A DNA stretch of 64,000 nt. Source: Candidatus Poribacteria bacterium (lineage in GTDB: Bacteria; Poribacteria; WGA-4E; WGA-3G). The first letter of the stretch is position 1; each line of letters starts with the position of its first letter. The notes beneath the pieces are model-generated. The model was given only the letters and a program-made list of their open reading frames with translations, made no database searches and had not been told where the DNA came from. This document shows positions 26,829-43,498 of this stretch, piece after piece. The position numbers were made by a program, and so were the translations under genes. Location of the stretch: contig JAJECK010000028.1 in the NCBI GenBank assembly GCA_022822085.1, forward strand, positions 1 through 64,000, given 5' to 3'.

Positions 26829-27929
26829 TTATTTGGTAAGTGGGTGCCTCCGTTTTTCCAAAGGCAAGCGGACCTTCGTGCCGGAGAAATGTGACGCATA
26901 AGTTGCGCTTACACACTCAAGTGATGTCAATGCGTTGCGTCCACCGAGTTCTGGTTGATTTCCATTAAGTATTGCGTCTCTCATATTTTGTGCACTCCAG
27001 ATCGTGTGGCGAGACTTCCACGCTTTTCCAGAGATTAGAAACGCTGATGTGTCAAGTTCTATCTGTTCCCATACTGGCGTATGTGCTGCAAATGATACAT
27101 CAAAAGGACAATACCACATCTCGTCTATACCTGTCTGTGGGTTAGGTTTGATCATTAGTTGTCCTTCTGAACCGAGCAGATGTGGTCCCATCATCCATCC
27201 ATGTCTGGGTTCACGTTGGTAAAGTTCCATGATGCCGTAAGTGCTGTTTGCACCGCCGATATGTACAAGCATTGTATCACCTGCGACGATGCCGTTGTCC
27301 CGCCTATCAGTTTTGCACAATTCGCTGCTGTGCATAATGTCTGCGTCAGTTACATCGTGTCCTTGATAGGTAATATGTGCTTGAATCCATGATATGCCAT
27401 CGAGGAAGAAATCCATTTCATCGAAGTAGTGGACACCCATTTCCATCAGTTCAAATCCTGCTTCGCGCCCTTTGCCTACTTCACGGATGGATCGTAGTTC
27501 GCCTATTTTCCCACTATCAACTAACGATTTCGCTTCCCGGAACAGCGGTGTGAAACGGAATTGATGACTAACTGCTAAATGGACACCCGCATCATGACAA
27601 GCAGCAACCATTTGGTCTGCGGTCTCTAAATCGATCGAGAGCGGCTTTTCACATAAAACATGGATTCCAACTTTTGCCGCCGCGATTGCAATCGGAGCGT
27701 GTAGAGGGGCATGTGTACATACGCTTACAATATCAAGTGTTTCATTCGCAAACATCTCAGGATAGTCAGTGTATCGGTTTGAAACACCGTATTCATCGGC
27801 GCGGTTGTTGAGTGCATCACGATTGATATCGCACATCGCGACAAGATCAACGTCTTCTAATCCATCATAAGCTGCTGCGTGCCTGCGGCTTATCCCACCA
27901 CAACCGACAATCCCTGCGCGTAAGATCAT
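26829..27929 (-). CDS. Gfo/Idh/MocA-family oxidoreductase
   Basis: A 366-residue NAD(P)-dependent dehydrogenase. The Rossmann N-terminus begins 'GIVGCGGISRRHAAAYDGL' and the family's Lys is in 'LCEKPLSIDLE' (EKP motif, about residue 95). The C-terminal half follows the alpha/beta domain of glucose-fructose oxidoreductase-type enzymes ('GKGREAGFELMEMGVHYFDE'). Oxidises a sugar, inositol or similar polyol; the substrate is unknown. It heads a two-gene operon with the FAH gene. Confidence 0.92.
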   Translation of the reverse strand: MILRAGIVGCGGISRRHAAAYDGLEDVDLVAMCDINRDALNNRADEYGVSNRYTDYPEMFANETLDIVSVCTHAPLHAPIAIAAAKVGIHVLCEKPLSIDLETADQMVAACHDAGVHLAVSHQFRFTPLFREAKSLVDSGKIGELRSIREVGKGREAGFELMEMGVHYFDEMDFFLDGISWIQAHITYQGHDVTDADIMHSSELCKTDRRDNGIVAGDTMLVHIGGANSTYGIMELYQREPRHGWMMGPHLLGSEGQLMIKPNPQTGIDEMWYCPFDVSFAAHTPVWEQIELDTSAFLISGKAWKSRHTIWSAQNMRDAILNGNQPELGGRNALTSLECVSATYASHFSGTKVRLPLEKRRHPLTK

Positions 27930-28017
27930 GAGTTTATACGTTTATACTGTGTCCAATTGAAATAGTTTAGTGGATATTATACCATTTCTAATAATAATGT
28001 CTCATCACTAATTGGAA

Positions 28018-28058
28018 GCCCCCTAAATCCCCTTATCAGTGGGACTTTAAGGAGGTTT
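28018..28058. repeat. Imperfect inverted repeat
   Basis: 'gccccctaaatcccc' and 'gggactttaaggaggttt' are imperfect inverted copies with a short AT loop, between two minus-strand genes. This may be a terminator for the dehydrogenase gene or a palindromic repeat; no T-tract is clear. Confidence 0.45.
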
Positions 28059-28074
28059 CCTTTATGACAGTTTC

Positions 28075-29100
28075 TTAAATAGAAATGGTATTACTTCTAT
28101 TCATTTGCAACAATGCCTGCCATTGTGTTTTGTCAACAAGCACACCCTTTTCAAGACTCTCCTGACGTGTGCGTAACATTCCTTCTCCCGGATACCGGAC
28201 CTTTTCGTTTTCATCTAACGGAGCAGCAGTGTGAAAATCGTCAATTATCGCTTCCACGGTTTCGTTCAATACTGTCTGTCCCATCATTCCAGCAGCACTT
28301 ATAGCAATATAAACCTGAGAGACAGCATATTCCGATTTCTGTTTCCCAATCTGATGCGTCGCTTGTCCGCCTGAAATAACAGCAGCCATTGTATCAAGCA
28401 CCAATGCCAATCCAGAACCTTTCCAGTAGCCGATGGGAAGTGCTCTTTGCGAATCGAGAATCTCGGCAGGTTCAATCGTGAGTTCCCCCATAGTATCATA
28501 CCCACCCGGTAAAGGCAGCTGCTTACCTTGTCGTTTGAGTACTTCTAATTTCCCATTAGAATATTGACTCATTGCCATATCAAGTAGAATATGTTCACCA
28601 TCACGAGGAATAGCAATCGCTAATGGGTTATTCCCAATCTTTTTCTCAGCAGAACCCCACGGTGGCATGAGTTTAGTTGTATTTGTCCAACAGATACCGA
28701 TATATCCTGCTTCTGCTGCCTGTAGTGCATAAGCTCCACCACGCATCCAATGGTTTGTATTAGATAGGCCGATACAACCGATACTATGGACTTCGGCAAG
28801 TTCCATTGTGCGTTGCATACATAAGTGTGCATTCACAAGACCTACCCCCATCTTACCATCCCAACGTTCTAACGCACCGAAACTCTCTATCTTTTCTGGG
28901 TTTGCTCGGAAATCAATCTGTTTGCTCGTTAGTCCTGCCACAAATCCCGGAAACCGATTGAGCCCGTGTGAGTAGACACCGTCGCGTTGGTTTTCTGCAA
29001 ACAACCGCGCACATAATTTCGCACGTTCATCTGCAAAGCCAACTGCCGATAGTACACGATAAAATTCATCATATAAAGTCTGGAAAGGTACACGGACCAT
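28075..29100 (-). CDS. Malate/L-lactate dehydrogenase-family (Ldh) oxidoreductase
   Basis: A 341-residue NAD(P)-dependent enzyme of the malate/ureidoglycolate/lactate dehydrogenase 2 family. Landmarks include 'DGVYSHGLNRFPGFV' near residue 47, 'GLSNTNHWMRGGAYALQAAE' with the conserved His, 'SAEKKIGNNPLAIAIP' and 'LPIGYWKGSGLALVLD'. ATG 29100 is chosen over the upstream ATG at 29226: AAGGA lies just before it and the upstream 42 codons bear no family resemblance. It probably oxidises a hydroxy acid. It lies between the PhyH gene and the Gfo/FAH operon, on the same strand. Confidence 0.9.
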   Translation of the reverse strand: MVRVPFQTLYDEFYRVLSAVGFADERAKLCARLFAENQRDGVYSHGLNRFPGFVAGLTSKQIDFRANPEKIESFGALERWDGKMGVGLVNAHLCMQRTMELAEVHSIGCIGLSNTNHWMRGGAYALQAAEAGYIGICWTNTTKLMPPWGSAEKKIGNNPLAIAIPRDGEHILLDMAMSQYSNGKLEVLKRQGKQLPLPGGYDTMGELTIEPAEILDSQRALPIGYWKGSGLALVLDTMAAVISGGQATHQIGKQKSEYAVSQVYIAISAAGMMGQTVLNETVEAIIDDFHTAAPLDENEKVRYPGEGMLRTRQESLEKGVLVDKTQWQALLQMNRSNTISI

Positions 29101-29286
29101 GCAATTCTTCCTTACCGGAGTATTCAATACTATTATGCCTAATGTCTGAGAAGATTGCAAGATATTTCGTGTTTGCAGATATAATTGGGGTGGGTGAAAT
29201 AAGTATAAGGAAACGCTGAAGCACAAGAATTGGTTGCTACGATATAGCAGTGTGCATCCTTTCCATTACAACTCAGATTCACAACA

Positions 29287-30144
29287 CTACCACATTTCAA
29301 GCCATTCCATAAGGGTTGTCACAGGCTGTTTTTGACTTCGGATAACCCATTTGAAATTGGGGTCTTTCCAATAGATCGTACCCGGATTGTCCCCATCACG
29401 GAGGTAGCGAATGTCAATTGCCCAACGAATAATCTGGCTTGTAGTATGCGGTATGGAGCGATGGAGCGTAAGGTTATGGAACACCAATGCATCTCCCATT
29501 TCCATCGGACAGGTCACAATGCGAGAATCATCCACAAGTTCGTCCATAACTTCAAGGAATCTGCCTTCTCGGTCTTCAGTGTGATGATTAACAACGCCTA
29601 ACCGATGTGAACCTGCGACCACCTGCAAACAACCGTTAGATTCATCCACTGGCACAAGTGGGATCCATGCTGTTGGAATCAGCGAATCTTCACTGACTTT
29701 ACCAAAATAACCGCTGTCTTGGTGCCACGGAACAACAGTCAATTGCTGTCCGGGCAGTTTCGGACGCGCATTGAAGACAGGGTGTCCGATCACGTCTGTT
29801 CCTGTGAGTTGCCCGATTGCATCTACAAGAGGACCGGCGTAATGCAGATCAAATATCTCAGATGTTGCGATTTGTCCACGCCAAGAACGACCAAAGCGAT
29901 TGGCATGTTTGCTAGCGACTTTCAATAAACGGGTTTCAAATGGAAGTTCTGCTCCTTCATCTTCAACGATGTCTTCTTCCTTCAGCTGCCGAATTATGTC
30001 TTCTACAACACAAGCGAACCTATTGCGGACTCCCTTGAGAGTAGGTTCGGGAATGACGTTTTTCAGTAATAAATATCCATCGTTTTCCCATTGATGCATC
30101 TGTTCTGAAGTAAGCGGATGTATTTGTATTTGATCGTTTTGCAT
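29287..30144 (-). CDS. PhyH-family dioxygenase (standard H-x-D type)
   Basis: A 285-residue Fe(II)/2-oxoglutarate dioxygenase. Its proximal ligands are intact, His141-Gln-Asp143 ('VPWHQDSGY'), followed by 'NGCLQVVAGSHRLG' and a distal His in 'NLTLHRSIPHTTSQ', with the Arg 2-oxoglutarate anchor in 'IIRWAIDIRYL'. The substrate cannot be inferred; Ldh-family and Gfo-type genes downstream suggest small-molecule catabolism. A ribosome-like GGAAGTGAG lies just upstream of the ATG. It is a useful in-window standard against the H-x-G forms. Confidence 0.9.
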   Translation of the reverse strand: MQNDQIQIHPLTSEQMHQWENDGYLLLKNVIPEPTLKGVRNRFACVVEDIIRQLKEEDIVEDEGAELPFETRLLKVASKHANRFGRSWRGQIATSEIFDLHYAGPLVDAIGQLTGTDVIGHPVFNARPKLPGQQLTVVPWHQDSGYFGKVSEDSLIPTAWIPLVPVDESNGCLQVVAGSHRLGVVNHHTEDREGRFLEVMDELVDDSRIVTCPMEMGDALVFHNLTLHRSIPHTTSQIIRWAIDIRYLRDGDNPGTIYWKDPNFKWVIRSQKQPVTTLMEWLEMW

Positions 30145-30184
30145 ATTTTTCTCACTTCCGTATCAACATTTCAATTCTGGTGAT

Positions 30185-30418
30185 TTACCTATGTGTTTCC
30201 ATATACGCTCGGAGCACCGTATTTATCTGTGTGTGGTAATCTTTTCCTTGTTTTTTGAACCATTCAAAGATTTCATGTTCAATTTGAAGATAATTCTCAG
30301 GGACAATACGATTGGCATTTTCCCAGAAGTCATCATCAAGTTCGGGGATCTCTGATGTGTCAATCGCGTCCTCTGTGAGACTTTCAATTTCAGATAACCG
30401 TGTCTTTGAAAGAGACAT
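30185..30418 (-). CDS. BrnA-family antitoxin, no BrnT visible
   Basis: A 77-residue protein with the BrnA signature: 'LDDDFWENANRIVPENYLQI', then 'IFEWFKKQGKDYHTQINTVL', 'RAYMETH'. The second part is a ribbon-helix-helix-like DNA-binding end. BrnA proteins normally follow a BrnT RNase toxin gene. Upstream (30419-30625) is intergenic and no BrnT is found; downstream is a PhyH gene. Likely an orphan antitoxin or a regulator. Confidence 0.82.
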   Translation of the reverse strand: MSLSKTRLSEIESLTEDAIDTSEIPELDDDFWENANRIVPENYLQIEHEIFEWFKKQGKDYHTQINTVLRAYMETHR

Positions 30419-30575
30419 AATACTTTCTACTTTTCCATAATACCACTTCGGTTCATTTCAATAATGAAATACATTGTTGAAAGACACTATCTATAATAGT
30501 ATATCACTTTTCCATAAAATTGACGAATCTTTTCAATTCAAAGTTCTGATGTTCTGATAAATTGTCTTTATATCT

Positions 30576-30604
30576 TTGACATTTCATCAAAGAAATGCTA
30601 TTCT
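30576..30604 (+). promoter_or_regulatory. Strong predicted sigma70 promoter
   Basis: TTGACA at 30576-30581, a 17-base spacer, TATTCT at 30599-30604. The start of transcription is expected near 30611, just before the AAGGAGG at 30612 that serves the ATG at 30626. It fits the dimethylformamidase-like and sulfatase genes as one transcript. Confidence 0.65.
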
Positions 30605-30625
30605 GCATCACAAGGAGGAAACATT

Positions 30626-31999
30626 ATGGCAACTTTGACACAAACAGAAAACCGTATCAGACCTCTCTATATTGATGGATACACTCATCAACTGAGTTAC
30701 GCCCCCGGTGAAGAAATTGCATTTCATGTCTCAACCAGCGCAGGTAACCACTCCCTTGAGATTGCGCGCATTGGTGTTGAGCGTGAAGTAGTATTCAACG
30801 AATCCGGACTTCCGGGGAAGGCACAACCGGTACCCGTAAATGCTTCATCACACGGATGTGGTTGGGAAGCTACCTACACATTTGAAGTGCCAGAGACGTG
30901 GCAGAGCGGATACTATGAAGGGACTCTCCGCGCTTCTGATGGTGGTGGCGACCCTATCTATAGAAATCATCGCACAGCAGAAAGTTCCTTACACTTTATC
31001 GTTCGTCCGGCACAACCAGGATCTAACACGCCTATTCTACTGCAGCTCTCTACAAACACATATAACGCCTATACCAATTGGGGTGGTTTTAGTCTTTACG
31101 GGTATCACGGACAGAATGGAATGCAAGGACGTCGTGTCTCATTTGACCGACCTATTGGTAGTCAATATAGGACTTGGGAGTTGCCATTCGTTGTGTGGGC
31201 AGAACAGAATGGATATAAACTTGATTATGCAGCGAATAGTGACCTTGAGTTCCGTCCTGAAATGTTGGAACGTTACAAACTTGTCCTGAGCCTTGGGCAC
31301 GACGAATACTGGTCTGCTCCGATGCGCGATAATCTTGAAGCATTCATTGCGAAGGGTGGAAACGTAGCATTTTTCAGTGGAAATGCTGTGTGTTGGCAAG
31401 TACGTTCCGAAGACGATGGACGCGCGCTCGTATGCTGGAAGCAGAGCTACAACCAAGACCCTATTTACAAAACCGATGATCATAGCACGTTGAGTACCTT
31501 GTGGAGCCACTATTTAGTAGAACGTCCTGAAAACCATTTGACAGGTGTCGGCTTCCTTCAAGGTGGCTATCACTTGAGTCACGGTCAATTTATGGATGGA
31601 GATGGTGCATACACTGGACACCGTCCAGAACATTGGGTGTTTGAAGGGACAGACTTAGCAAGAGATGAGAAGTTTGGTGGACAAAATACCGTTGTCGGCT
31701 ATGAGTGTGATGGCTGTGAATTCACACTTGAAGACGGTTTTCCTGTGCCGACCTATCAAGATGGTACGCCAGAAGGATTTACAATCCTTGCCACTGCCCC
31801 TGTCCGCTGGCATCCAGATGATTGCGAATGGTATGAACGTTGGGAACAAGGTCATACTGGTGCTGCTACCATGGGCATCTATACAAAAGGCGGTACTGTC
31901 TTTACCGCTGCTACTACGGATTGGTCGCACGGATTGGCAGGTGGGGATGCTGTTGTGGAACGGATTACGCATAATGTTTTGCAGCGGCTTTCAAAATAA
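30626..31999 (+). CDS. N,N-dimethylformamidase large-subunit-like protein
   Basis: A 457-residue protein that resembles the large subunit of N,N-dimethylformamidase, an iron-dependent amidohydrolase with an unusual Tyr/Tyr/Glu iron site. The central block 'LSLGHDEYWSAPMRDNLEAF' with 'GGNVAFFSGNAVCWQ' is a family hallmark, as is 'SSLHFIVRP'. The start is set by AAGGAGG eight bases upstream. Many relatives in environmental bacteria are uncharacterised, so amide hydrolysis is likely but the substrate is open. No small subunit gene was recognised. The sulfatase gene begins 31 bases downstream. Confidence 0.85.
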   Translation: MATLTQTENRIRPLYIDGYTHQLSYAPGEEIAFHVSTSAGNHSLEIARIGVEREVVFNESGLPGKAQPVPVNASSHGCGWEATYTFEVPETWQSGYYEGTLRASDGGGDPIYRNHRTAESSLHFIVRPAQPGSNTPILLQLSTNTYNAYTNWGGFSLYGYHGQNGMQGRRVSFDRPIGSQYRTWELPFVVWAEQNGYKLDYAANSDLEFRPEMLERYKLVLSLGHDEYWSAPMRDNLEAFIAKGGNVAFFSGNAVCWQVRSEDDGRALVCWKQSYNQDPIYKTDDHSTLSTLWSHYLVERPENHLTGVGFLQGGYHLSHGQFMDGDGAYTGHRPEHWVFEGTDLARDEKFGGQNTVVGYECDGCEFTLEDGFPVPTYQDGTPEGFTILATAPVRWHPDDCEWYERWEQGHTGAATMGIYTKGGTVFTAATTDWSHGLAGGDAVVERITHNVLQRLSK

Positions 32000-32030
32000 T
32001 GAGATTAGGTCAGAAGAAATGGAGTTACAA

Positions 32031-33479
32031 ATGTCTAACGACCGTCCTAATATACTCTTAATCACCACCGATCAACAACGCGGCGACTGTTTAGGTATTG
32101 ATCCTGACGGTCCCGACTGCCTACAAACACCCAACTTAGACTGGATTGGTCACAGTGGCACACACTTCCGCCGTGGGTATGCTGAATGTCCGAGTTGTAT
32201 CCCTGCCCGACGTGGTATAATGACAGGCACAGCACCAGCAGCTAACGGAATGGTTGGGTATACAGGAGCACAATGGAACCCACCTCATACCCTGGCTGGT
32301 GAATTGTCCGCTGCCGGTTATCAAACCGAGATGATTGGCAAACTACATCTCAGTCCACCACGTAAGCGATACGGTTTTGATCATATCCAGTTGTCCGATG
32401 CTACGCATGGAACCGCTAACAACGACTATGTCGAATGGTTGCAGCAGTCCCATCGCCGCAACGATTATGATCCGGGTATGGCACACGGCGTTTCTGCAAA
32501 CGGATGGGTGGGTCGTCCGCATCACCTCCCCGAAGAGCAGATGCACACCTTCTGGTGTGTAGATCGCGCCCTCAAATTTCTGCGAAAACGCGATCCATCA
32601 GCACCCTTTTTCCTCAACATCTCCTTTATAGACCCGCACCCACCGTTGACACCGCCAGCACACTATTACCAACGATACATACAGCGGGCTCTTCCATCTC
32701 CCGCTATCGGCAAGTGGTCCTTAAATCTTGATCTTCCTCAGAAAGGATTAAATCCAAATGCTTGGGAAATTAACCTTGACAGATACGATATGCAATGTGC
32801 ACGTGCTGCCTATTACGGAATGATCAATTTCATTGACGATCAGATCGGACGGCTGCTTCAAAACGCGGGTAACCTGAATGACTGTCTCGTTATTTTTACT
32901 TCCGACCACGGTGAGATGCTGGGTGATCACAATATGTTCCGCAAAACCTTTCCTTATGAAGCAAGCGCAAGGGTGCCTTTCCTAATGCGAGCACCAGCAA
33001 AATGGCGTTATCCGAAAGAAACTGTTTGCAATAGTCCAGTCGGACTGCAGGACATCATGCCAACCATTCTTGACGCTGCAAACATTGAAATTCCAAACAC
33101 CTGTACCGGTAAGAGTCTGCTGCCAATTATGCGAGGAGATACTGATAGAGTGCGAGACTGTCTGCACGGGGAGCATTCCGGTTGCTACAATTACAAGCAC
33201 GGCAACCACTATATAACTGATGGACACTACAAGTACATCTGGTATTCCCAAACAGGACGCGAACATCTCTTTAATCTGCGAGAAGACCCGCACGAAACAA
33301 CAGATTTAGCACTGGAGGACGGTGCAGAAACGCGCCTAACCCCTTGGCGAAATCGTCTGATTGAGTTCCTCCACGACCGTCCTGAAGGCTTTACTGATGG
33401 CACAGACCTTATAGCAGGACAACGTCATGATGCCTTGCTACCGGACTATAATCCTGATGCTACCTATCCTTATTTGTAA
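32031..33479 (+). CDS. Sulfatase (formylglycine-dependent, Cys type)
   Basis: A 482-residue sulfatase of the alkaline-phosphatase superfamily. The activation site is Cys56-Ile-Pro-Ala-Arg60 (C-x-P-x-R), with Cys to be converted to formylglycine. Metal-site motifs are visible: 'ILLITTDQQRGD' near the N-terminus, and 'FTSDHGEMLGDHNMF' (Asp-His pair). 'NISFIDPHPPLTPP' is also typical. Met32031 is chosen because GGAG at 32021-32024 is well spaced; ATG 32019 is a near alternative. No signal peptide is obvious. It follows the dimethylformamidase-like gene in the same direction. Confidence 0.92.
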   Translation: MSNDRPNILLITTDQQRGDCLGIDPDGPDCLQTPNLDWIGHSGTHFRRGYAECPSCIPARRGIMTGTAPAANGMVGYTGAQWNPPHTLAGELSAAGYQTEMIGKLHLSPPRKRYGFDHIQLSDATHGTANNDYVEWLQQSHRRNDYDPGMAHGVSANGWVGRPHHLPEEQMHTFWCVDRALKFLRKRDPSAPFFLNISFIDPHPPLTPPAHYYQRYIQRALPSPAIGKWSLNLDLPQKGLNPNAWEINLDRYDMQCARAAYYGMINFIDDQIGRLLQNAGNLNDCLVIFTSDHGEMLGDHNMFRKTFPYEASARVPFLMRAPAKWRYPKETVCNSPVGLQDIMPTILDAANIEIPNTCTGKSLLPIMRGDTDRVRDCLHGEHSGCYNYKHGNHYITDGHYKYIWYSQTGREHLFNLREDPHETTDLALEDGAETRLTPWRNRLIEFLHDRPEGFTDGTDLIAGQRHDALLPDYNPDATYPYL

Positions 33480-33546: not shown

Positions 33547-34950
33547 ATGGACAAGGAAACACAAACCCTCTCAGTTATGCACGGACCCGGCGCAATCCTC
33601 TTAATCTCCTGCTACGAACTCGGACACCGACCAATAGGACTCACGCGTCCACTCGCGGCACTTGAAGCTGCCGGATTTTCCCCCGATACCATTGACATTG
33701 CAGTGGAAACCTTAGATGCAGAAAAGGTCAAACGCGCCCAATTCATCGGCATCTCAGTCCCCATGCATACTGCACTACGCCTCGGTGTTCATCTCCTCCA
33801 ACGAATTCGAGAACTCAACCCAGATGTCACAATATGCATGTATGGACTTTACGCAGAACTCAATGCCGCCTATCTGCTCTCACATGGAGTTGATTTCTGC
33901 ATCAGTGGTGATGTGCCTACTCAACTCTTAGCGTTAGTAGAGTCCCTTACTCAGGAAAAACGTATTCATCAGGTTACAAACAATAATGGAAGCCTCCCAG
34001 CTTTAGACAAATACGCGTGTTTTGAGGATAACGGTGAGATGCGAACCGTTGGGTATACAGAGACAACACACGGATGCAAACATCTCTGCACACATTGCCC
34101 CATTCCACCCGTATATAACGGCAAGTTCTTTCCTGTGCAGCGAGAAACGGTATTAGACGAAATTCAGAAACAGGTCGCAGAAGGAGCAACACACATCACA
34201 TTTGGTGACCCTGATTTCCTCAATGGACCGATGCATGGCCTCCGCATTCTTCGCGCAATGCATGCAACGTTCCCCCAGCTTACCTTTGACTTTACAACCA
34301 AGATTGAACATATCCTCAAACACAGCAAACACTTTCCAGAATTCGCTGAACTCGGATGTCGGTTTATCATCTCTGCTGTGGAATCGTTGAGCGGGACAGT
34401 GTTAACTATTTTGGAAAAACACCACACCCGAGCTGATGTTGAAACTGCGATTGACACCGTTCACCAGGCAGGCATAGCATTGCGTCCAACATGGGTGCCG
34501 TTCACCCCGTGGACAACATTAGAAGACTACCTTGAAATCCTTGAATTCGTTGACACACATCGTCTGGTCTATCATGTGGATCCTGTGCAGTATGCTGTGC
34601 GTTTGCTCATTCCTCCCAGTTCATACCTGTTAAACCGACCTGAAACCAAAGCACTCAATCTCACACTTGACCAATCCGCCTTTAGTTATATCTGGGAACA
34701 TCCCGATCCTATCATGGATAAACTACAGAAAACAGTCAACACGCTTGTGGAAAATGACGCGCGTACCGATGTGGATGCTTTGGATACCTTTTATCGGATA
34801 TGGGAACTTGCTGTCGACATGCATGGTAGTAGGCACACGCCGTTGGACCGTAACCGAAAACAGACGCACCTACCCGCGCCACGAATTACAGAGGCATGGT
34901 TCTGCTGAGCGGAGCCAACTGAGGGGCAGTTTGCTCCGATGCACGTATAA
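33547..34950 (+). CDS. Radical SAM selenoprotein with CUAEP tail
   Basis: A 467-residue protein if the UGA at 34906-34908 is read as selenocysteine (residue 454). The N-terminal 150 residues look like a B12-binding-type domain ('GPGAILLISCYELGHRP', 'AQFIGISVPMHTALRLG'). The radical SAM core has Cys177-x3-Cys181-x2-Cys184 for the 4Fe-4S cluster ('HGCKHLCTHCP'). The end reads Thr-Glu-Ala-Trp-Phe-Cys453-Sec454-Ala-Glu-Pro, then 11 more residues to TAA at 34948-34950. This matches the 'CUAEP/CCAEP-tail' radical SAM family, in which the first tail position may be Sec or Cys. A SECIS-like hairpin follows the UGA immediately. A plain gene call would stop at 34908 and miss the tail. The reaction is unknown; the Cys-Sec pair suggests redox or metal chemistry. 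Confidence 0.9.
34909..34938 (+). promoter_or_regulatory. Bacterial SECIS-like hairpin
   Basis: Starts one base after the UGA. The outer stem 'cggagc' (34910-34915) pairs with 'gctccg' (34933-34938), there is a C/U mismatch (34916/34932), and the inner stem 'aactg' (34917-34921) pairs with 'cagtt' (34927-34931). The apical loop is 'agggg' (34922-34926). Bacterial SECIS elements carry conserved G residues at the start of the apical loop about 15-20 bases after the UGA, to bind SelB; that holds here. The same bases also encode the tail Ala-Glu-Pro. Confidence 0.85.
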
Positions 34951-34987: not shown

Positions 34988-37270
34988 GTGAGAAAGTTTT
35001 TTCCAATGCTAACACTCTATATCGTTGCAGTATTGTATGCATCATCAATTTTTGCACAATACGAACCCTCCATGCAAATGGGTTTACCTGATGGGGCAAT
35101 AGCGCGTTTCGGAAAAGGTACTATCAGAGATATAATGTATTCACCTGATGGTACACAGTTCGCTGTTACCGCAAACATCGGTGTTTGGATTTACGATGCA
35201 AGGACTGGTAAAGAACTTGACCTGATAGCAGAAGAACATCCGGACAGAATCTATTCTGCTGCCTATTCACCTGATAGTAAAACAATTGCGACTGTGGGAC
35301 AGGACAAAACAGTCCGACTATGGAATGCACACACAGGAAAACACGTAAAAACGCTTACTGGACATAAGGACGAGATTAATTCTGTTGCATTTTCACCTGA
35401 TGGTCAGATATTGGCAACTGGTAGTTCAGACAATACCATACGACTCTGGAATGCAAATTCAGGGAAATATATAAAAACACTCAAGGGACATACACAACCC
35501 GTCTCCTCAGTTCAATTTTCTTCAGATGGTGATATGCTTGCAAGCTCCACCCTCAGCGGTACAATCCGATTTTGGAGTTTGTCAAAAGGACAATTGATAA
35601 GGACACTTCAGGGATATCGGGAGCTAATTTCATATTCCCCAGTTGGCAAAACACTTCTTCTAATTCCGAATCCAGATGGCAGCAATACGGTCTTTAGAAC
35701 AAAAGATTCAGATGGCTATATCACAGAAGAAGTCACACTGGCAAATCCTGATACTATCTACACTATGCACATATTAGATGTAGTCACAGGACAACAGATA
35801 AAAACAATACCATCACTGAATTATGTTAATTGCTTTGCGTCCTCTCCCGATGGGAAAACAATCGCTATCAGTGATGGAGAAAGGTTTGGACTTTGGGATG
35901 CTACCACTGGAAAACACCTAAAGACCTTGAGCGAGGGGACGCCTGAAGTCCAATCTATTGCGTATTCCCCAGATGGAAATACTATCGCTACCGTCAGATG
36001 GGATAGAGTGCAATGGTGGAATGCTCAAACAGGAGAAAACATAAAAACATTTCCAAGTTCCATTGATAACTTTGGTGCAATCAGATTCTCACCCGACGGC
36101 AAAACAATCGCGATTTCAGAAGGCAGAGAAATTAGTCTGCTACATGCAGAATCTGGAAAGTATCTAACCACACTTGAAGGACATAAGGCTTATATTTCTG
36201 GTTTCGCGTTATCTCCTGATAGCAAGACTATCGCAACTGGTAGTTCAGACGGGACAGCGCGGCTGTGGGATGTTGATACAGGTGAAAATTTGGAAATATT
36301 CAATATGGAGCATACAAAACATCGCAATGAATTCGTTAGAATCTATCCTCCGAAGTTTTCGCCTGACGGTAAAACACTCGCATTTCGCAGTGAACACAAT
36401 ACATTGTGGTTATGGGATACACAACAGCAATACATAGTTAGAACTATTCCAGGGGAGCATTACCACATAAAAGATTTTGTTTTTTCTAATGATGGGAAAA
36501 TACTTGCAACAAGGTCTAAAACTGAGGCAGTTCATTTATGGAATACAAAAACAGGACGGCACATAAATACACTCACAGGACTTACTCATTTCATTACTTT
36601 TTCACCAGATGGGAATATACTTGCAACCTCTTTGGATAATTGGGTGGAATTATGGAGTACGAACACAGGAGAAAAATTAAATGAACTTTTCATACCTAAT
36701 GCGTGTAACACAAAAATTATGTGGACAGAAGACGGTAATCCATTCACAATTACTATTCATCAAAATGAATCGGTATCACTTTGGGATCTAACAACAGGAC
36801 AGCACATTCAGGCATTTGAGGGAGTCATGGATGAGACACTTGCTGCTTTAGGTCGATCATTTTTTAGGATGACAAATAAGGTGATGATAGGAAGTTGGAA
36901 CACTGAGTTAGTCGTTTCACCTACCCAGGATACATTCGTGACTGTTGTAGAGCAGAACCCTGTTAGACTTTGGGATATTACCACAAGGAAACAGATAGGA
37001 AAGTCAATAAAATCCCTGAAAGGTGAGGGGAATTATACATTAGTTCAATATTTCCCGGATGGTAAAACAATTGCCACCATTCCGATTGGTCCTGATCGAC
37101 AAGGTGGCACTGTGCGGTTATGGGATGTTGCAACAGGTGAACATCTAAAAACACTCAAGGGATACTCTAACTGTGATTTTAAATCAGTTGCGTTTTCCCC
37201 TGATAGTAAAACAATCGCAACAGGTCATGATGATGGCACAGTGTTATTGTGGGATATTCCTACACGGTAG
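34988..37270 (+). CDS. Secreted WD40 protein, first of tandem trio
   Basis: A 760-residue exported protein, GTG start with AGGAGA 9 bases upstream. A signal peptide ends near 'SSIFAQYEP'. About sixteen WD40-type blades follow (for example 'INSVAFSPDGQILATGSSDN', 'TVRLWNAHTGKHVKTL'), probably two propellers. It lacks the dockerin and sorting tail of the 10354-14783 protein. The first blade ('YSPDGTQFAVTANIGVWIYD') belongs to an entry module shared by all five WD40 proteins of the window. Likely a periplasmic or secreted binding protein. Starts 37 bases after the selenoprotein stop, so could be co-transcribed, but the functions are unrelated as far as can be seen. Confidence 0.88.
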   Translation: MRKFFPMLTLYIVAVLYASSIFAQYEPSMQMGLPDGAIARFGKGTIRDIMYSPDGTQFAVTANIGVWIYDARTGKELDLIAEEHPDRIYSAAYSPDSKTIATVGQDKTVRLWNAHTGKHVKTLTGHKDEINSVAFSPDGQILATGSSDNTIRLWNANSGKYIKTLKGHTQPVSSVQFSSDGDMLASSTLSGTIRFWSLSKGQLIRTLQGYRELISYSPVGKTLLLIPNPDGSNTVFRTKDSDGYITEEVTLANPDTIYTMHILDVVTGQQIKTIPSLNYVNCFASSPDGKTIAISDGERFGLWDATTGKHLKTLSEGTPEVQSIAYSPDGNTIATVRWDRVQWWNAQTGENIKTFPSSIDNFGAIRFSPDGKTIAISEGREISLLHAESGKYLTTLEGHKAYISGFALSPDSKTIATGSSDGTARLWDVDTGENLEIFNMEHTKHRNEFVRIYPPKFSPDGKTLAFRSEHNTLWLWDTQQQYIVRTIPGEHYHIKDFVFSNDGKILATRSKTEAVHLWNTKTGRHINTLTGLTHFITFSPDGNILATSLDNWVELWSTNTGEKLNELFIPNACNTKIMWTEDGNPFTITIHQNESVSLWDLTTGQHIQAFEGVMDETLAALGRSFFRMTNKVMIGSWNTELVVSPTQDTFVTVVEQNPVRLWDITTRKQIGKSIKSLKGEGNYTLVQYFPDGKTIATIPIGPDRQGGTVRLWDVATGEHLKTLKGYSNCDFKSVAFSPDSKTIATGHDDGTVLLWDIPTR

Positions 37271-37410
37271 GGATAGTCGCAAACAACATACCGAAATCTA
37301 TAAAAGGAGACTGAAACAATGAAAAGGTTATTTCTAATGTTTACCCTATTTTTCTTTGTAACAATGTGTTTATCCCCTACCTTCGCGCAATACGAACCCT
37401 CTACGCAAAT
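37265..37410 (+). repeat. Duplicated gene junction (copy 1 of 2)
   Basis: About 145 bases containing the stop of one WD40 gene, the intergenic 'gggatagtcgcaaacaa', the ribosome site and the first 25-30 codons of the next gene. It is nearly identical to 39497-39642; only scattered changes are seen. The signal-peptide coding parts are the same except for one Lys/Arg codon. This marks a recent tandem duplication or ongoing gene conversion. Confidence 0.85.
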
Positions 37411-39502
37411 CAGTTTACCTGAAGGTGCAATAGCACGATTAGGCAGAGGACATATAAAGGAGATAATGTATTCACCAGATGGCACGCGGCTTGCTGTTAC
37501 CACATCAAGCGGGGTTTGGATTTATGATGGAAAAACAGGAGAAGAACTTGGTTTGATAACAAGAAGACACAAACATCTTGTTATGTCAGCGGCTTATTCC
37601 CCGGATGGAAAAACAATCGCTACTGGTTATTGGAATGGCACTTTGCGGTTATGTGATGCAGACACAGGAAAAAACAAAAATACTCTTATTGGACATTCCT
37701 ATGTAATTGATTCCATAGCGTATTCCCCAAATGGAAGCATGATCGCTACTGGAGGCACAGACAAAACTGTCCGGTTATGGGATGTATCTACAGGAAAGAA
37801 TATAAATACACTCACTGAACATATAGGTCCTGTCTATTCAGTTAAGTTTTCCCCCGATGGAAAAACTATTGCTACTGGGAGTGAAGACAATACAATTCGA
37901 TTGTGGGATACGCATACTGGAAAACTAAGAAATACATTTGATGGATATCGGAAACCAATTGTATTTTCAATGGATGGAAATATGTTTTTCGCAGTTAGCA
38001 ATAGCACCTATGAAGTACAGATATGGGATACAGCTACAGGACAACCTATAAAAACAATACCTAAAAAGAACACTGTTTATCCTATTGTATATTTATTAAA
38101 GAACAACACGTTCACCCTTGATGATAAAGGTGAATTGATCCTGCAAAATGTCCATACAGAAAAACCGCTAAAATCCTTCATAGATGATACACAATTGATC
38201 GTATCTATTATTTATTCTCCAGATGGAAAAACAATCGCTACTGCTGATCTAAATGGCACAATGCAGTGGTGGGATGCACACACAGGAGAAAATATAAAGA
38301 CATTTACAAGATATATAGGTAGAGGACACCCTTCTATTCAATATTCACCCAACGGGAAGTTAATTGCAACTGGCGGAGCAATAATGCCAAATTTATGGGA
38401 TGCAGCCACTGGGAAGTTTCTGAGAACTATTTACGGGCACGAAAGTTATGGTATTTTTACGTTTTCACCAGACGGTGATATACTTGCGACTGCCAGTGCA
38501 GACAGCACAGCGCGGCTATGGAATGTATACACAGGTGAAAATATAAAAACTCTCACAGGACATAATGGTCGCGTCTATCCTCTCATATATTCGCCAGATG
38601 GGAATACGTTCGTAACTGCTGATGATGGTGGAACATTGCGGATATGGGATGCGGATACGGGTAATCAACTGAAAACACTTACTGGAGACACGTACAAAGC
38701 TATATGGTTTTTGTATTCTCCAGATGGAAAAAAACTCGCAACTCGTTTTAATGATACGGTGCGATTGTTGAACGCATACACAGGGGAAACCGAAAAATCA
38801 CTCCTTGGACATACTGGACGTGTTCATGCTGCTGCGTATTCACCAGATGGAAAAACAATTACTACTTATAGCACCGACAATACAGTACGTTTGTGGGATA
38901 CTAACACAGAGAAAAATATAAAAACTCTTAATATCTTAGGCAAAATCATGGCAGTTGTATATTCACCTGAGGGTGAACCACTCGCAATTACAACTCATGA
39001 GGAAACGGTGACGCTTTGGAATGTAGCAACAGAACAACTATTAAAAAGATATGAAGGACAAAAAAATGGAATTTTAGGATCTTTGACACGCTCCAAAAAA
39101 AGACAAAATGAAAGAACACGTTGGGGGCCTCCAAACCATATCCATACTGTTAAGTATTCACCGAATGGTAGTACACTTGCAACTGTCAGGAATAATGGTA
39201 TAGTCCAACTATGGGATGTAGATAAAGAAAGACGTATAGGAAAACTGATAAAGCCCTTTAAAGATGAACCGTTGAACGTTTGGATTGAATACTCTCCGGA
39301 CGGTAGAATACTCGTAACAGCGCAATTTGGTAATATGACAGGCACGCCACGGTTGTGGGATACTGCAACAGGGAAACTCCTAAAAACACTCAAAGGATAT
39401 ACCTATTGTGGCAATTCGTTGAAATTTTCTCCCGACAGCAAGACAATCGCAACAGGACATCGGGATGGCACAGTGTTACTGTGGGATATTCCCACACGGT
39501 AG
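37319..39502 (+). CDS. Secreted WD40 protein, second of tandem trio
   Basis: A 727-residue paralogue of its neighbours. Signal peptide ('MFTLFFFVTMCLSPTFAQ'), then about fifteen WD40 blades ('VYSVKFSPDGKTIATGSEDN', 'TIRLWDTHTGKLRNTF') and the end 'TVLLWDIPTR', which is identical to the first copy. The ribosome site AAAGGAG is well placed. Same family and probable role as the neighbouring copies; the blades diverge in the middle but the two ends are strongly conserved, as expected from exchange between copies. Confidence 0.88.
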   Translation: MKRLFLMFTLFFFVTMCLSPTFAQYEPSTQISLPEGAIARLGRGHIKEIMYSPDGTRLAVTTSSGVWIYDGKTGEELGLITRRHKHLVMSAAYSPDGKTIATGYWNGTLRLCDADTGKNKNTLIGHSYVIDSIAYSPNGSMIATGGTDKTVRLWDVSTGKNINTLTEHIGPVYSVKFSPDGKTIATGSEDNTIRLWDTHTGKLRNTFDGYRKPIVFSMDGNMFFAVSNSTYEVQIWDTATGQPIKTIPKKNTVYPIVYLLKNNTFTLDDKGELILQNVHTEKPLKSFIDDTQLIVSIIYSPDGKTIATADLNGTMQWWDAHTGENIKTFTRYIGRGHPSIQYSPNGKLIATGGAIMPNLWDAATGKFLRTIYGHESYGIFTFSPDGDILATASADSTARLWNVYTGENIKTLTGHNGRVYPLIYSPDGNTFVTADDGGTLRIWDADTGNQLKTLTGDTYKAIWFLYSPDGKKLATRFNDTVRLLNAYTGETEKSLLGHTGRVHAAAYSPDGKTITTYSTDNTVRLWDTNTEKNIKTLNILGKIMAVVYSPEGEPLAITTHEETVTLWNVATEQLLKRYEGQKNGILGSLTRSKKRQNERTRWGPPNHIHTVKYSPNGSTLATVRNNGIVQLWDVDKERRIGKLIKPFKDEPLNVWIEYSPDGRILVTAQFGNMTGTPRLWDTATGKLLKTLKGYTYCGNSLKFSPDSKTIATGHRDGTVLLWDIPTR

Positions 39503-39642
39503 GGATAGTCGCAAACAATATACCGAAATCTATAAAAGGAGTCCGAAACAATGAAAAAGTTATTTCTAATGTTTACCCTATTTTTCTTTGTAACAATGTG
39601 TTTATCCCCTACCTTCGCGCAATACGAACCCTACACACAAAT
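39497..39642 (+). repeat. Duplicated gene junction (copy 2 of 2)
   Basis: The second copy of the junction described at 37265-37410, between the second and third WD40 genes. The match starts in the last codons of the upstream gene and runs through the signal-peptide region of the downstream gene. Confidence 0.85.
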
Positions 39643-41989
39643 CGGTTTACCCGAAGGTGCAATTACCCGTTTGGGAAAAGGGTACATACGAGGAATGACA
39701 TATTCTCCTGATGGCACTCAGATGGCTGTCAGCACATTCATCGGTGTTTGGATTTACGATGCCCGCACCGGAGAAGAACTAAATTTGTTGACAGGACAGC
39801 ATGGGGAACCTTATGTTTCCGCAGCATATTCCTCGGATGGCAAAACAATCGCAACTGGAGGCACAGATGGGACAGTGCAACTATGGAACACACGCACTGG
39901 AAAAATTATAAAAAAGTTCAAATATAATGAGGAATATATAAGTTATATAAAATATTCACCTGACGGTCAGACAATCGCAATAAAGGGGCCAAAAAATACG
40001 ATTGAACTGTGGAATGCACGCACTGGAAAACACTTTAAATCACTCGCTGGTCATGAAAAGCCTACAACTTTTTATGAAGGACATCCTGACGTGACTATTT
40101 CCTCCTTTGCATTTTCTCCTGATAGCAAAACAATCGTGAGTGGTGGCGGGGACAAAACAGTACGGTTATGGAATGCGCGCACCGGAGGAAACATACGAAC
40201 ACTAACAGGACATACAGAAACGGTCGTCGCAGTAGCATTTTCACCAGATGGTGGGACTATCGTAAGTGCGAGCAGGGACAAGACGGTCCGAATGTGGGAC
40301 GCACACACAGGGGAAATCATAAATACTCTCACAAGACATAAAGATATTATTGTTTCAGCCGCTTATTCGCCTGATGGCAACACCATCATTTCTGCTGGTT
40401 GGGATGGTATGTTACATCTATGGAACGCACAAACTGGACAACCTTTAAAGACCTTTGAATTATTTACAGGTGTCCTTCATTTCTCACGTGGACACGCGGG
40501 GGCAATCACACACACTGCATATTCTTCTGACGGTAATACAATCGCAACTGCTGGTGGAGATGGAACAATGCAGTGGTGGGATGCACATACTGGTGAAAAA
40601 CAGAAAACATTTAAAGGGCATAGTTCTCATTCCGTTAAGTATTCACCAGATGGTAAGACACTCCTAATTGAGATAGGGAACGAGGCGCAGTTACGGGATG
40701 CAGCTACTGGAAAATATATTAATACACTCAAAGGACATAGATATAATATTGAACACATCGTTTTTTCACCAAAGGGTGATATTATTGCAATTTCAAATGT
40801 TGTTGGCACATTAGGATTGTGGGATGCTTCCACTGGAAAAACTATAAAAATATTGGGACAAAATGTTGATATTGAAGACTTTGATCCACGCGCCGGTTAT
40901 TTCCCCGTGTTTTCACCAGATGGAAAGATGATCGCAATTGAACAGGGCAAACAGACGGTGGGGATTTGGAACACAAGCACAGGAGAACACGTAAATACAC
41001 TCACAGGGCATGAAGGTCCTCTCAGTCTTCCAGTTTTTTCGCCGAATGGCAAAACGATAGTAACAGAAACATTCGTAAGATTTGGTAAGGGCGGTACTGT
41101 CCGCCTATGGGATGTTAAAACTGGAGAAATGATTATGAAATATGAAAATCCAGAGGATTATCTTGTGTTTAGGTACTCACCAGATAGCAAAACGCTTGCA
41201 ACAGATTACACTGATAATTCTGTACGACTATGGGATACGACCACTGGGGAAAACATAATAACACTTAAAGGACATACAGATAAGATTTATCCTCTGATGT
41301 ATGAACAGGATGGCAAAACCCTCATAACGCGTAGCAGAAATATGCCGTTCCGATTCTGGGACACGACCACTGGAAAAAACGTAAAAACACTCAAAATGCC
41401 GAGTGGATCAAGCACTGAATTGAAGCATTTCCCTAATGGAGATATACATGCAATTGCTATCAATAAATGGGATAAAACCGGATCGCTTTGGAATCTCACC
41501 ACGGGACAACGCCTTAAGACCTTACCTAAACATAATGAAGGTATTATTAAGTCTATAAGAGAGAAGTTCTTTGAGTGGTTCCCATCTAAAAAACACAAGA
41601 CTCAGTGGGATACCATCAGTTGGAAGATTTTTTCTCCGACCCGTGATACACTTATGGTTGTGATAGAGCACGATAAGATAAGGCTATGGAATCTCCACAC
41701 AGGCAAGCCAATAGGAAAACCAATTCATCTCAAAGATCAGCATGTGGATAGGTCAAGTCAAATAGGAAATGCTTTCTATTCACCAGATGGTAAAATGTTG
41801 GCAACATATCCACTTTCTTATAAGGGACATTTGCGTTTATGGAAGGTATCTACAGGTAAACTCATGAAGACATTCCCATGGCTTACGAACCTGAACTCCT
41901 ATGGAATTAAGTTTTCTCCAGACAGTCGTAAAATTTTAACAGAACATACCGATGGCACAGTACTCATCTGGGACATCCCACAACGATAG
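39551..41989 (+). CDS. Secreted WD40 protein, third of tandem trio
   Basis: An 812-residue paralogue with a signal peptide that is almost the same as the second copy and about sixteen WD40 blades ('VVAVAFSPDGGTIVSASRDK', 'TVRMWDAHTGEIINTL'), ending 'GTVLIWDIPQR'. It is longer than the other two by one or two blades. No anchor or other domain is visible. It is followed by 30 bases and then the DUF169 gene with its own AAAGGAG ribosome site. Confidence 0.88.
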   Translation: MKKLFLMFTLFFFVTMCLSPTFAQYEPYTQIGLPEGAITRLGKGYIRGMTYSPDGTQMAVSTFIGVWIYDARTGEELNLLTGQHGEPYVSAAYSSDGKTIATGGTDGTVQLWNTRTGKIIKKFKYNEEYISYIKYSPDGQTIAIKGPKNTIELWNARTGKHFKSLAGHEKPTTFYEGHPDVTISSFAFSPDSKTIVSGGGDKTVRLWNARTGGNIRTLTGHTETVVAVAFSPDGGTIVSASRDKTVRMWDAHTGEIINTLTRHKDIIVSAAYSPDGNTIISAGWDGMLHLWNAQTGQPLKTFELFTGVLHFSRGHAGAITHTAYSSDGNTIATAGGDGTMQWWDAHTGEKQKTFKGHSSHSVKYSPDGKTLLIEIGNEAQLRDAATGKYINTLKGHRYNIEHIVFSPKGDIIAISNVVGTLGLWDASTGKTIKILGQNVDIEDFDPRAGYFPVFSPDGKMIAIEQGKQTVGIWNTSTGEHVNTLTGHEGPLSLPVFSPNGKTIVTETFVRFGKGGTVRLWDVKTGEMIMKYENPEDYLVFRYSPDSKTLATDYTDNSVRLWDTTTGENIITLKGHTDKIYPLMYEQDGKTLITRSRNMPFRFWDTTTGKNVKTLKMPSGSSTELKHFPNGDIHAIAINKWDKTGSLWNLTTGQRLKTLPKHNEGIIKSIREKFFEWFPSKKHKTQWDTISWKIFSPTRDTLMVVIEHDKIRLWNLHTGKPIGKPIHLKDQHVDRSSQIGNAFYSPDGKMLATYPLSYKGHLRLWKVSTGKLMKTFPWLTNLNSYGIKFSPDSRKILTEHTDGTVLIWDIPQR

Positions 41990-42019: not shown

Positions 42020-42706
42020 ATGGCACAACAATTACAACAGCTACTCGGTTTAGACACAACCCCCATTGCGGTAACGTTTCACGACACTCCACCAGAGGAC
42101 ATATCCCGCGTGGAAAACGTTGAGGCATCCGGTTGTACCTATTGGAAACGCGCATCGGAAGGTAAGACCTTCTATACCGAGGCATCCGACCACTACAACT
42201 GCCCCATCGGGTGTTACACCCATAACGTTGAACTACCGGACGCACAAATGGAGGAATTGGAAAATACACTCGGTCTGATGGGTGAACTCGGTTATATTTC
42301 TATGGATGAAGTTCCCGGTATCCCACGTAGAGAAATTTCGTTCAAAAATGCAGTCTACGCGCCTTTAGCAGATATGCAAGGGACACCAGATATAGTTATT
42401 GTCTCTGGCACACCGAAGCAGATGATGTTATTAACAGAAGCGGCAACTGCCGCAGGAATCAACACCGAAAACGGTGTGATGGGTAGACCGACCTGTGCTG
42501 TGGTCCCTGCTGTTATCCAGTCTGATGGAGCCGCGAGCAGTCTGGGATGCATCGGCAACCGTGTCTATACTGCACTCTCTGATGATGACTTCTACTTCGC
42601 CTTTCCGGGCAAACATGTTGATGCCATCGTTGAAAAGTTAGAGACAATTGTGAATGCCAACCGTGCGTTAGAGGAATATCATCAGCAGCGTCAAGCGGAG
42701 ATTTGA
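42020..42706 (+). CDS. DUF169 domain protein
   Basis: A 228-residue DUF169-family protein of unknown biochemical role. Recognisable parts are 'TPIAVTFHDTPPEDI' at the N-terminus, 'SGCTYWKRASEGKTFYTEAS' with 'DHYNCPIGCYTH' in the middle, and 'DDDFYFAFPGKHVDAIVEKL' near the end. Conserved Cys residues in 'NCPIGC' could bind a metal or cofactor. It is translationally coupled to the following SDR gene: its TGA stop is directly followed by the next ATG. Confidence 0.88.
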   Translation: MAQQLQQLLGLDTTPIAVTFHDTPPEDISRVENVEASGCTYWKRASEGKTFYTEASDHYNCPIGCYTHNVELPDAQMEELENTLGLMGELGYISMDEVPGIPRREISFKNAVYAPLADMQGTPDIVIVSGTPKQMMLLTEAATAAGINTENGVMGRPTCAVVPAVIQSDGAASSLGCIGNRVYTALSDDDFYFAFPGKHVDAIVEKLETIVNANRALEEYHQQRQAEI

Positions 42707-43498
42707 ATGGAAACCGTCGCAGTTATAACTGGTGCAGCGAGCGGTATCGGACGCGGTATGGCGGAAAGGTTCACTGCAGAAGGGATGGCGGTTGTCCTTG
42801 CAGATATTGAAGAAAAGCCGTTAGCAAAACTTGAAGCAGATTTGCGTGCTAAAGGTGCAACCGTCATCGCTGTCCGAACTGATGTGTCAAATGTTGACGA
42901 TGTTGAAAACCTTGCAGTGCAAACATACAACACCTTTGGCGCGGTGCATATCCTCTGCAACAATGCTGGTGTTGTCTGTAGTCGTCCTATCTGGGAACAT
43001 ACCATCACCGATTGGGAGTGGGTATTAGGTGTAAACCTATGGGGTGTCATCCACGGAGTCCGCACGTTTGTTCCCCGCATGCTTTCACAAGATACCGAAT
43101 GTCATATCGTCAATACTGCTTCTATCCTCGGTTTGGTCCGTGCGCCAGGTGAAGGTATCTATAAGGTGAGCAAGCACGGAGTTGTTGCACTTTCAGAAAC
43201 CCTCGCCGATGAGTTAGCACTAAAAAGTTCAAAAATTCAGGTGCATGTACTGTGTCCCGGATGGGTGCGGACAGGTATTTTAGACTCTGCCAGAAACCGT
43301 CCAGATGATGAATCTCACCACCATAATCGCGACATTACAGATAACCGAAATGTCCGGACTGAGATGGAAGCAGGCATGTCGCCTGCGGAGGTAGCAGATC
43401 ATGTCTACAATGCTATCCAGAACGGCACATTTTATATTCACACACATCCAGAACACAAAGCATGGGTGCAGAAGCGTATGGAGGGCATCCTCAAATAA
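42707..43498 (+). CDS. SDR-family oxidoreductase
   Basis: A 263-residue short-chain dehydrogenase/reductase. The NAD(P) motif T-G-A-A-S-G-I-G is at residues 8-15, 'NNAG' at about 85-88, and the catalytic Ser139, Tyr152 and Lys156 are present ('NTAS', 'YKVSK'). It probably reduces or oxidises a small alcohol or ketone. It follows DUF169 with no gap. Confidence 0.92.
   Translation: METVAVITGAASGIGRGMAERFTAEGMAVVLADIEEKPLAKLEADLRAKGATVIAVRTDVSNVDDVENLAVQTYNTFGAVHILCNNAGVVCSRPIWEHTITDWEWVLGVNLWGVIHGVRTFVPRMLSQDTECHIVNTASILGLVRAPGEGIYKVSKHGVVALSETLADELALKSSKIQVHVLCPGWVRTGILDSARNRPDDESHHHNRDITDNRNVRTEMEAGMSPAEVADHVYNAIQNGTFYIHTHPEHKAWVQKRMEGILK

Follow-up and report, generated by a model that had tools for sequence, protein, structure and literature searches.

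Plain open reading frame calling closes a radical SAM protein at an in-frame UGA in the window analysed here, a 64,000-nt stretch of contig JAJECK010000028.1 from a Candidatus Poribacteria bacterium. The locus therefore raises the question of whether this UGA is a stop codon or is read as selenocysteine (Sec), and what an enzyme with such a C-terminus might do.

Reading frame and family of the radical SAM gene

The gene opens with ATG at 33547, its in-frame TGA (34906-34908) is codon 454, and the frame runs on through 13 sense codons to a TAA at 34948-34950 (Table 1). With the UGA taken as Sec, the C-terminus reads AWFC-U-AEPTEGQFAPMHV. An initial annotation made from the DNA letters had described this continuation to the TAA at 34948, with a Phe-Cys-UGA-Ala-Glu-Pro tail, and had predicted that gene callers would truncate the protein at the UGA; both points were correct. 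Its assignment to the CUAEP/CCAEP-tail family was likewise borne out, as NF040546, the whole-protein NCBIfam HMM named "CUAEP/CCAEP-tail radical SAM (seleno)protein", matched with 620.1 bits against a curated cut-off of 500 bits. The CxxxCxxC motif that it had pointed out was confirmed in the sequence, and the Pfam model for radical SAM proteins (Radical_SAM, PF04055) scored above its cut-off. In an alignment of 59 proteins, C453, residue 454 (Sec or Cys), A455, E456 and P457 were all invariant.

Table 1 Features of the radical SAM locus and its surroundings in window coordinates
Feature	Coordinates	Strand	Evidence
Predicted CUAEP-tail radical SAM selenoprotein gene, 467 residues with Sec454	33547..34950	+	NF040546 match, residues 17-463
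Radical SAM CxxxCxxC motif, Cys177/Cys181/Cys184	34075..34098	+	PF04055, 44.9 bits; invariant in the 59-protein alignment
Cys453 codon TGC and predicted Sec454 codon TGA	34903..34908	+	Codon comparison across homologues
Putative bacterial SECIS core: stem 34923-34927 with 34933-34937, loop AGUUU 34928-34932	34923..34937	+	Covariation
DUF169 (COG2043) protein, conserved partner	42020..42706	+	Neighbourhood comparison
Short-chain dehydrogenase; follows DUF169 in most poribacterial relatives	42707..43498	+	Neighbourhood comparison

Codon 454 across the phylum and beyond

The radical SAM gene was found in 49 of the 85 genomes of the phylum, and UGA stood at the tail in all 49 carriers, in every copy that reaches the tail. 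In a mixed set of loci, TGA occupied this position in 38 poribacterial entries (30 distinct sequences), and 61 non-poribacterial homologues had TGC or TGT in the same column, followed in every case by AEP. These Cys-codon homologues, for which the initial annotation had recommended a search, came from Actinomycetota, Chloroflexota, Acidobacteriota, Nitrospirota, Pseudomonadota and other groups, one of them being that of Aciditerrimonas ferrireducens (L086). Codons 455-458 differed at third positions only among the 30 distinct poribacterial sequences, which argues that the tail is translated.

The machinery for Sec insertion was present in the same genome, with tRNA-Sec (78 bits), SelA (611 bits), SelB (354 bits) and SelD (367 bits) all over their cut-offs and the tRNA-Sec gene adjoining selB on one contig. 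SelB was found in 47 of the 49 carriers, the two exceptions being genomes that are 73% and 81% complete. The SelD gene (L044, G000:C140:29818-30744) has an in-frame UGA of its own (VKCAG-U-ASKL) and is itself a selenoprotein gene.

A conserved hairpin downstream of the UGA

A hairpin just after the UGA had been noticed at the outset. Such a hairpin is real, but the fold of lowest energy is not the conserved one. With columns counted from the U of UGA, RNAfold on the sequence of this genome alone favoured a long hairpin at columns 5-33 (-16.6 kcal/mol, z -2.3), which was rejected as the SECIS element as it is not kept in relatives. Paired changes instead supported a smaller hairpin, mutually exclusive with the lowest-energy fold, in which a 5-bp stem pairs columns 18-22 with 28-32, at 15-29 bases past the UGA.

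The covariation set comprised 30 poribacterial sequences and that of Thermomicrobium roseum. Across it 87% of the stem cells were paired and 11 cells had changed on both sides, and none of 500 shuffles reached the covariation score, figures which come from related sequences and are not independent probabilities. No slid version of the stem was its equal in cells paired or in score. The outermost pair, 18-32, was weak and unpaired in 17 of 30, which leaves a firm core of 4 bp. The model for bacterial SECIS elements describes a stem of at least 4 bp, an apical loop of 3-9 nt lying 16-37 nt past the UGA, and a G within the first two places of the loop; here the loop begins 19 nt after the UGA, reads G then U after its initial A, tops a 5-bp stem and is accompanied by compensatory changes. 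G24 and U25 of the loop were invariant. This G occupies the third place of the Gln461 codon, which was CAG in 30 of 30 sequences; Gln codons elsewhere in the same genes were split between 175 CAG and 178 CAA, a contrast that would follow from a need for G in the loop. Folding energy separated Sec from Cys forms unclearly (mean z -1.1 vs 0.1), and the case for the SECIS element therefore rests on covariation. An Rfam search of the hairpin matched no family, which says little, given that bacterial SECIS elements vary.

The distant T. roseum homologue WP_012643191.1, encoded on a megaplasmid (L116:7944-9422), is annotated as ending in WFC, and the DNA goes on with TGA GCG GAG CCG, followed by a hairpin in the same register made of other base pairs. 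Judged from the DNA, its annotation has probably been cut at a Sec codon. A search of the megaplasmid found no tRNA-Sec over the cut-off. In the family tree, the Sec forms lay in one part beside a few Cys forms, where the branching was without resolution, and few changes between Cys and Sec were needed.

These observations bear directly on the alternative in which translation truly stops at the UGA, or a sequencing error has turned TGC or TGT into TGA, and the tail behind it stays untranslated. Plain ORF calling does end the protein there, and the T. roseum homologue is annotated with the same end point. Against this, no poribacterial copy lacked the tail UGA, a recurrence in 49 of 49 carriers that speaks against the two worries voiced by the initial annotation, namely relatives that all end here and a miscalled Cys codon; the third-position changes, the Sec machinery, the covarying stem and the 61 homologues with Cys before the same AEP all point the same way. 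The alternative retains only a minute probability, and both true stop and sequencing error are excluded for practical purposes. The earlier proposal of Sec at residue 454 thus gained support from the family score, the machinery, the phylum-wide UGA, the Cys homologues and the SECIS covariation. On this comparative evidence, the gene almost certainly encodes a full-length 467-residue CUAEP/CCAEP selenoprotein, in which UGA 454 would be decoded as Sec by SelB at the SECIS hairpin.

Genes that accompany the radical SAM gene

Outside Poribacteria, an ATP-grasp with an L-amino-acid-ligase C-terminal domain (LAL_C2) lay close to the radical SAM gene in 44 loci, an Nfu/IscA-type Fe-S carrier in about 42 and a DUF169 gene in about 11. 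Many of these loci were from Acidimicrobiia with a common gene order, and the recurrence of the partners in Chloroflexota, Nitrospirota and Pseudomonadota is for this reason the stronger support. In a nitrospirotal locus (L111) the radical SAM, DUF169 and ATP-grasp genes stood in a row, as did the Nfu, radical SAM and ATP-grasp genes in a pseudomonadotal one (L109). The ATP-grasp, the DUF169 protein and the Fe-S carrier thus recur beside the radical SAM gene and form a module with it.

In Poribacteria the ATP-grasp gene was unlinked to the radical SAM gene and had a gene neighbourhood of its own; that of the present genome lies on contig C54, and its product is 53% identical to the L111 protein. 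Across the 85 genomes, 48 had both genes, one the radical SAM gene only, six the ATP-grasp only and 30 neither, so that the ATP-grasp was present in 48/49 genomes with the radical SAM gene versus 6/36 without it. The corresponding counts within the genome's own family were 37, 1, 6 and 15, or 37/38 versus 6/21 (Fisher p 2e-8, in a test that ignores shared ancestry). Several of the genomes with the ATP-grasp only are incomplete. Within the own family, every one of the 38 carriers had a close DUF169 gene, as did two further genomes (G026 and G069); in other poribacterial families the gene was distant or absent, and DUF169 is therefore not a universal partner. Two genomes had only short radical SAM fragments (G010:C1:1459779-1459883 and G018:C15:58402-58557) and were without the ATP-grasp and DUF169 partners; the fragments are probably remnants decaying after gene loss.

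In the window, three tandem WD40-repeat genes (760, 727 and 812 aa; 34988-41989) separate the radical SAM gene from DUF169, and the N-terminal signal regions of their products are near-identical. The radical SAM and DUF169 genes are normally neighbours and adjoin in many relatives, so that the WD40 genes were apparently inserted, and multiplied, at a later stage. Upstream, at 26829-33479, lie genes judged by eye to be sulfatase, phytanoyl-CoA dioxygenase-like, malate/lactate dehydrogenase-like and Gfo/Idh-type genes.

Kinship to ArsL and the question of arsenic

By sequence comparison, the nearest relative of the CUAEP family is the arsinothricin enzyme ArsL, whose model NF040542 scored 315.7 bits for the radical SAM protein, next after NF040546. 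ArsL takes the 3-amino-3-carboxypropyl group from SAM and attaches it to As(III) (PMC8552651). CUAEP proteins aligned with ArsL along their length at 33-37% identity and carried the same motifs around the cluster and active site. Both C-termini present adjacent soft ligands, Cys-Cys in RCCLKC of ArsL and Cys-Sec or Cys-Cys in FC[U/C]AEP, although the CUAEP tail comes after about 50 extra residues and does not have the third tail cysteine.

This kinship invites the reading that the protein works as an ArsL and produces the arsenic compound hydroxyarsinothricin, since ArsL is the closest other family. The score nevertheless stayed under the NF040542 cut-off (316 against 450 bits), the tail differs, with no RCCLKC in the aligned protein, and ArsL formed a separate group in the tree with 100/100 support. 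Unlike ArsL clusters, moreover, CUAEP loci had no ars genes around them: ArsM, ArsN1, ArsQ, ArsH, ArsC, ArsB, ArsR and ArsI gave no convincing match nearby, the sole ars-type matches being two weak ArsM-like methyltransferases (L087 and L092), so that arsenic is not indicated. A functional ArsL is accordingly improbable.

Like CUAEP loci, ArsL clusters sometimes hold an ATP-grasp, as seen near ArsL in plasmid-borne arsinothricin-type clusters of Priestia and Alicyclobacillus (L117:2477-3700 and L119:2430-3662). Their LAL_C2 domain scored just under the cut-off, and they were only 21-26% identical to the ATP-grasps of CUAEP loci, for which reason the association may have arisen independently. 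The presence of an ATP-grasp near ArsL hints at a peptide form of arsinothricin.

Proposed chemistry of the Cys-Sec tail

For a relative of ArsL, the [4Fe-4S] cluster would most likely cleave SAM, and the two soft atoms of Cys453 and Sec454 could together clamp a thiophilic atom (a metalloid, a chalcogen or a metal) and present it in the active site. By analogy with ArsL, the 3-amino-3-carboxypropyl group of SAM would be moved to this soft atom, and the product would be an unusual 2-amino-4-substituted butanoate. The co-occurring L-amino-acid-ligase-type ATP-grasp might then couple this product to a second amino acid; the Fe-S clusters would come from Nfu, and the DUF169 protein would have an accessory role. 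We favour this scheme because of the alignment with ArsL, the adjacent soft ligands in the tail and the ATP-grasp in ArsL clusters, and we put forward only tentatively that the tail holds a soft atom during SAM cleavage and that the amino acid formed is then ligated. Broader and somewhat more speculative is the picture of a Sec-dependent sister of ArsL whose Cys-Sec clamp joins a non-arsenic soft atom, or arsenic as well, to a SAM-derived radical, the resulting new amino acid being ligated into a small molecule in many uncultured bacteria of sponges, soils and sediments.

The main rival takes the Cys-Sec pair as a redox dyad, which through a selenenylsulfide would deliver electrons or regenerate the enzyme and would bind no substrate. 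Adjacent Cys/Sec pairs are common redox centres, and the family keeps Sec or Cys at the second position. However, the nearest characterised relative, which has a Cys-Cys tail, is an enzyme of C-As bond formation, and the conserved neighbourhood held no prominent gene for a dedicated thioredoxin or reductase, although a flavin-reductase-like gene recurs in Acidimicrobiia. We consider the redox dyad possible but doubtful. The initial annotation had spoken of a redox or radical enzyme with a Cys-Sec pair, a description that is compatible with our results but unspecific; the relationship to ArsL and the accompanying genes tip the balance towards a substrate-holding role and away from a plain redox one.

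A second rival sees in the protein a radical SAM methylase, or an enzyme related to one, that depends on cobalamin and binds B12 through its N-terminal Rossmann domain. The AlphaFold model, which was confident (mean pLDDT 92, tail blocks about 80-89), had OxsB, AprD4 and TsrM among its best matches in structure comparison, and a sequence search against solved structures returned no match. The B12-binding domain PF02310 gave a weak match, but its 31.2 bits lay under the cut-off of 32.1. The most evenly matched structure was AprD4 (TM 0.66/0.67), which belongs to the family but is not known to use B12. In the text available, the ArsL paper describes no B12 dependence (PMC8552651). A B12 enzyme thus appears rather unlikely.

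Taken as a whole, Sec recoding combined with ArsL-like clamp chemistry is the best explanation of the locus, and we hold it with moderate confidence, a judgement that blends the near-certain recoding with the much more tentative chemistry. In the poribacterial members and the one from T. roseum, ordinary gene calling makes its cut exactly at a residue that is probably catalytic. With an amino acid ligase, an Fe-S carrier and DUF169 linked to it, a radical SAM family that had no known function becomes a pathway open to testing, the kinship to ArsL provides a first substrate hypothesis for the CUAEP family, and the set of partners suggests that its enzyme makes an unusual amino acid.

Comparison with known families

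None of the papers searched mentioned CUAEP, CCAEP, NF040546 or RCCLKC, and a 2026 review of the prokaryotic selenoproteome had no entry named CCAEP or NF040546. TIGR04167 (rSAM_SeCys or ArsS), which has been linked with arsenosugars, resembles the present family in being a radical SAM family with Sec forms, and it gave no match to the radical SAM protein at E 0.001. Reviews of the prokaryotic selenoproteome include TIGR04167 (PMC13188914, PMC9312934).

The CUAEP/CCAEP family and its alternation of Sec and Cys are already in NCBIfam; what is new here is the SECIS element, a probable second Sec lineage, the gene module and the recognition of ArsL as nearest relative. The poribacterial protein is like NF040546 (rSAM_CUAEP) in its full-length match, its CxxxCxxC motif, its FC[U/C]AEP tail and the predicted Sec at the position described for the family. 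Nothing excludes it from membership; it represents the Sec form in Poribacteria, to which a mapped SECIS is added here, along with partner genes on which the name of the model is silent.
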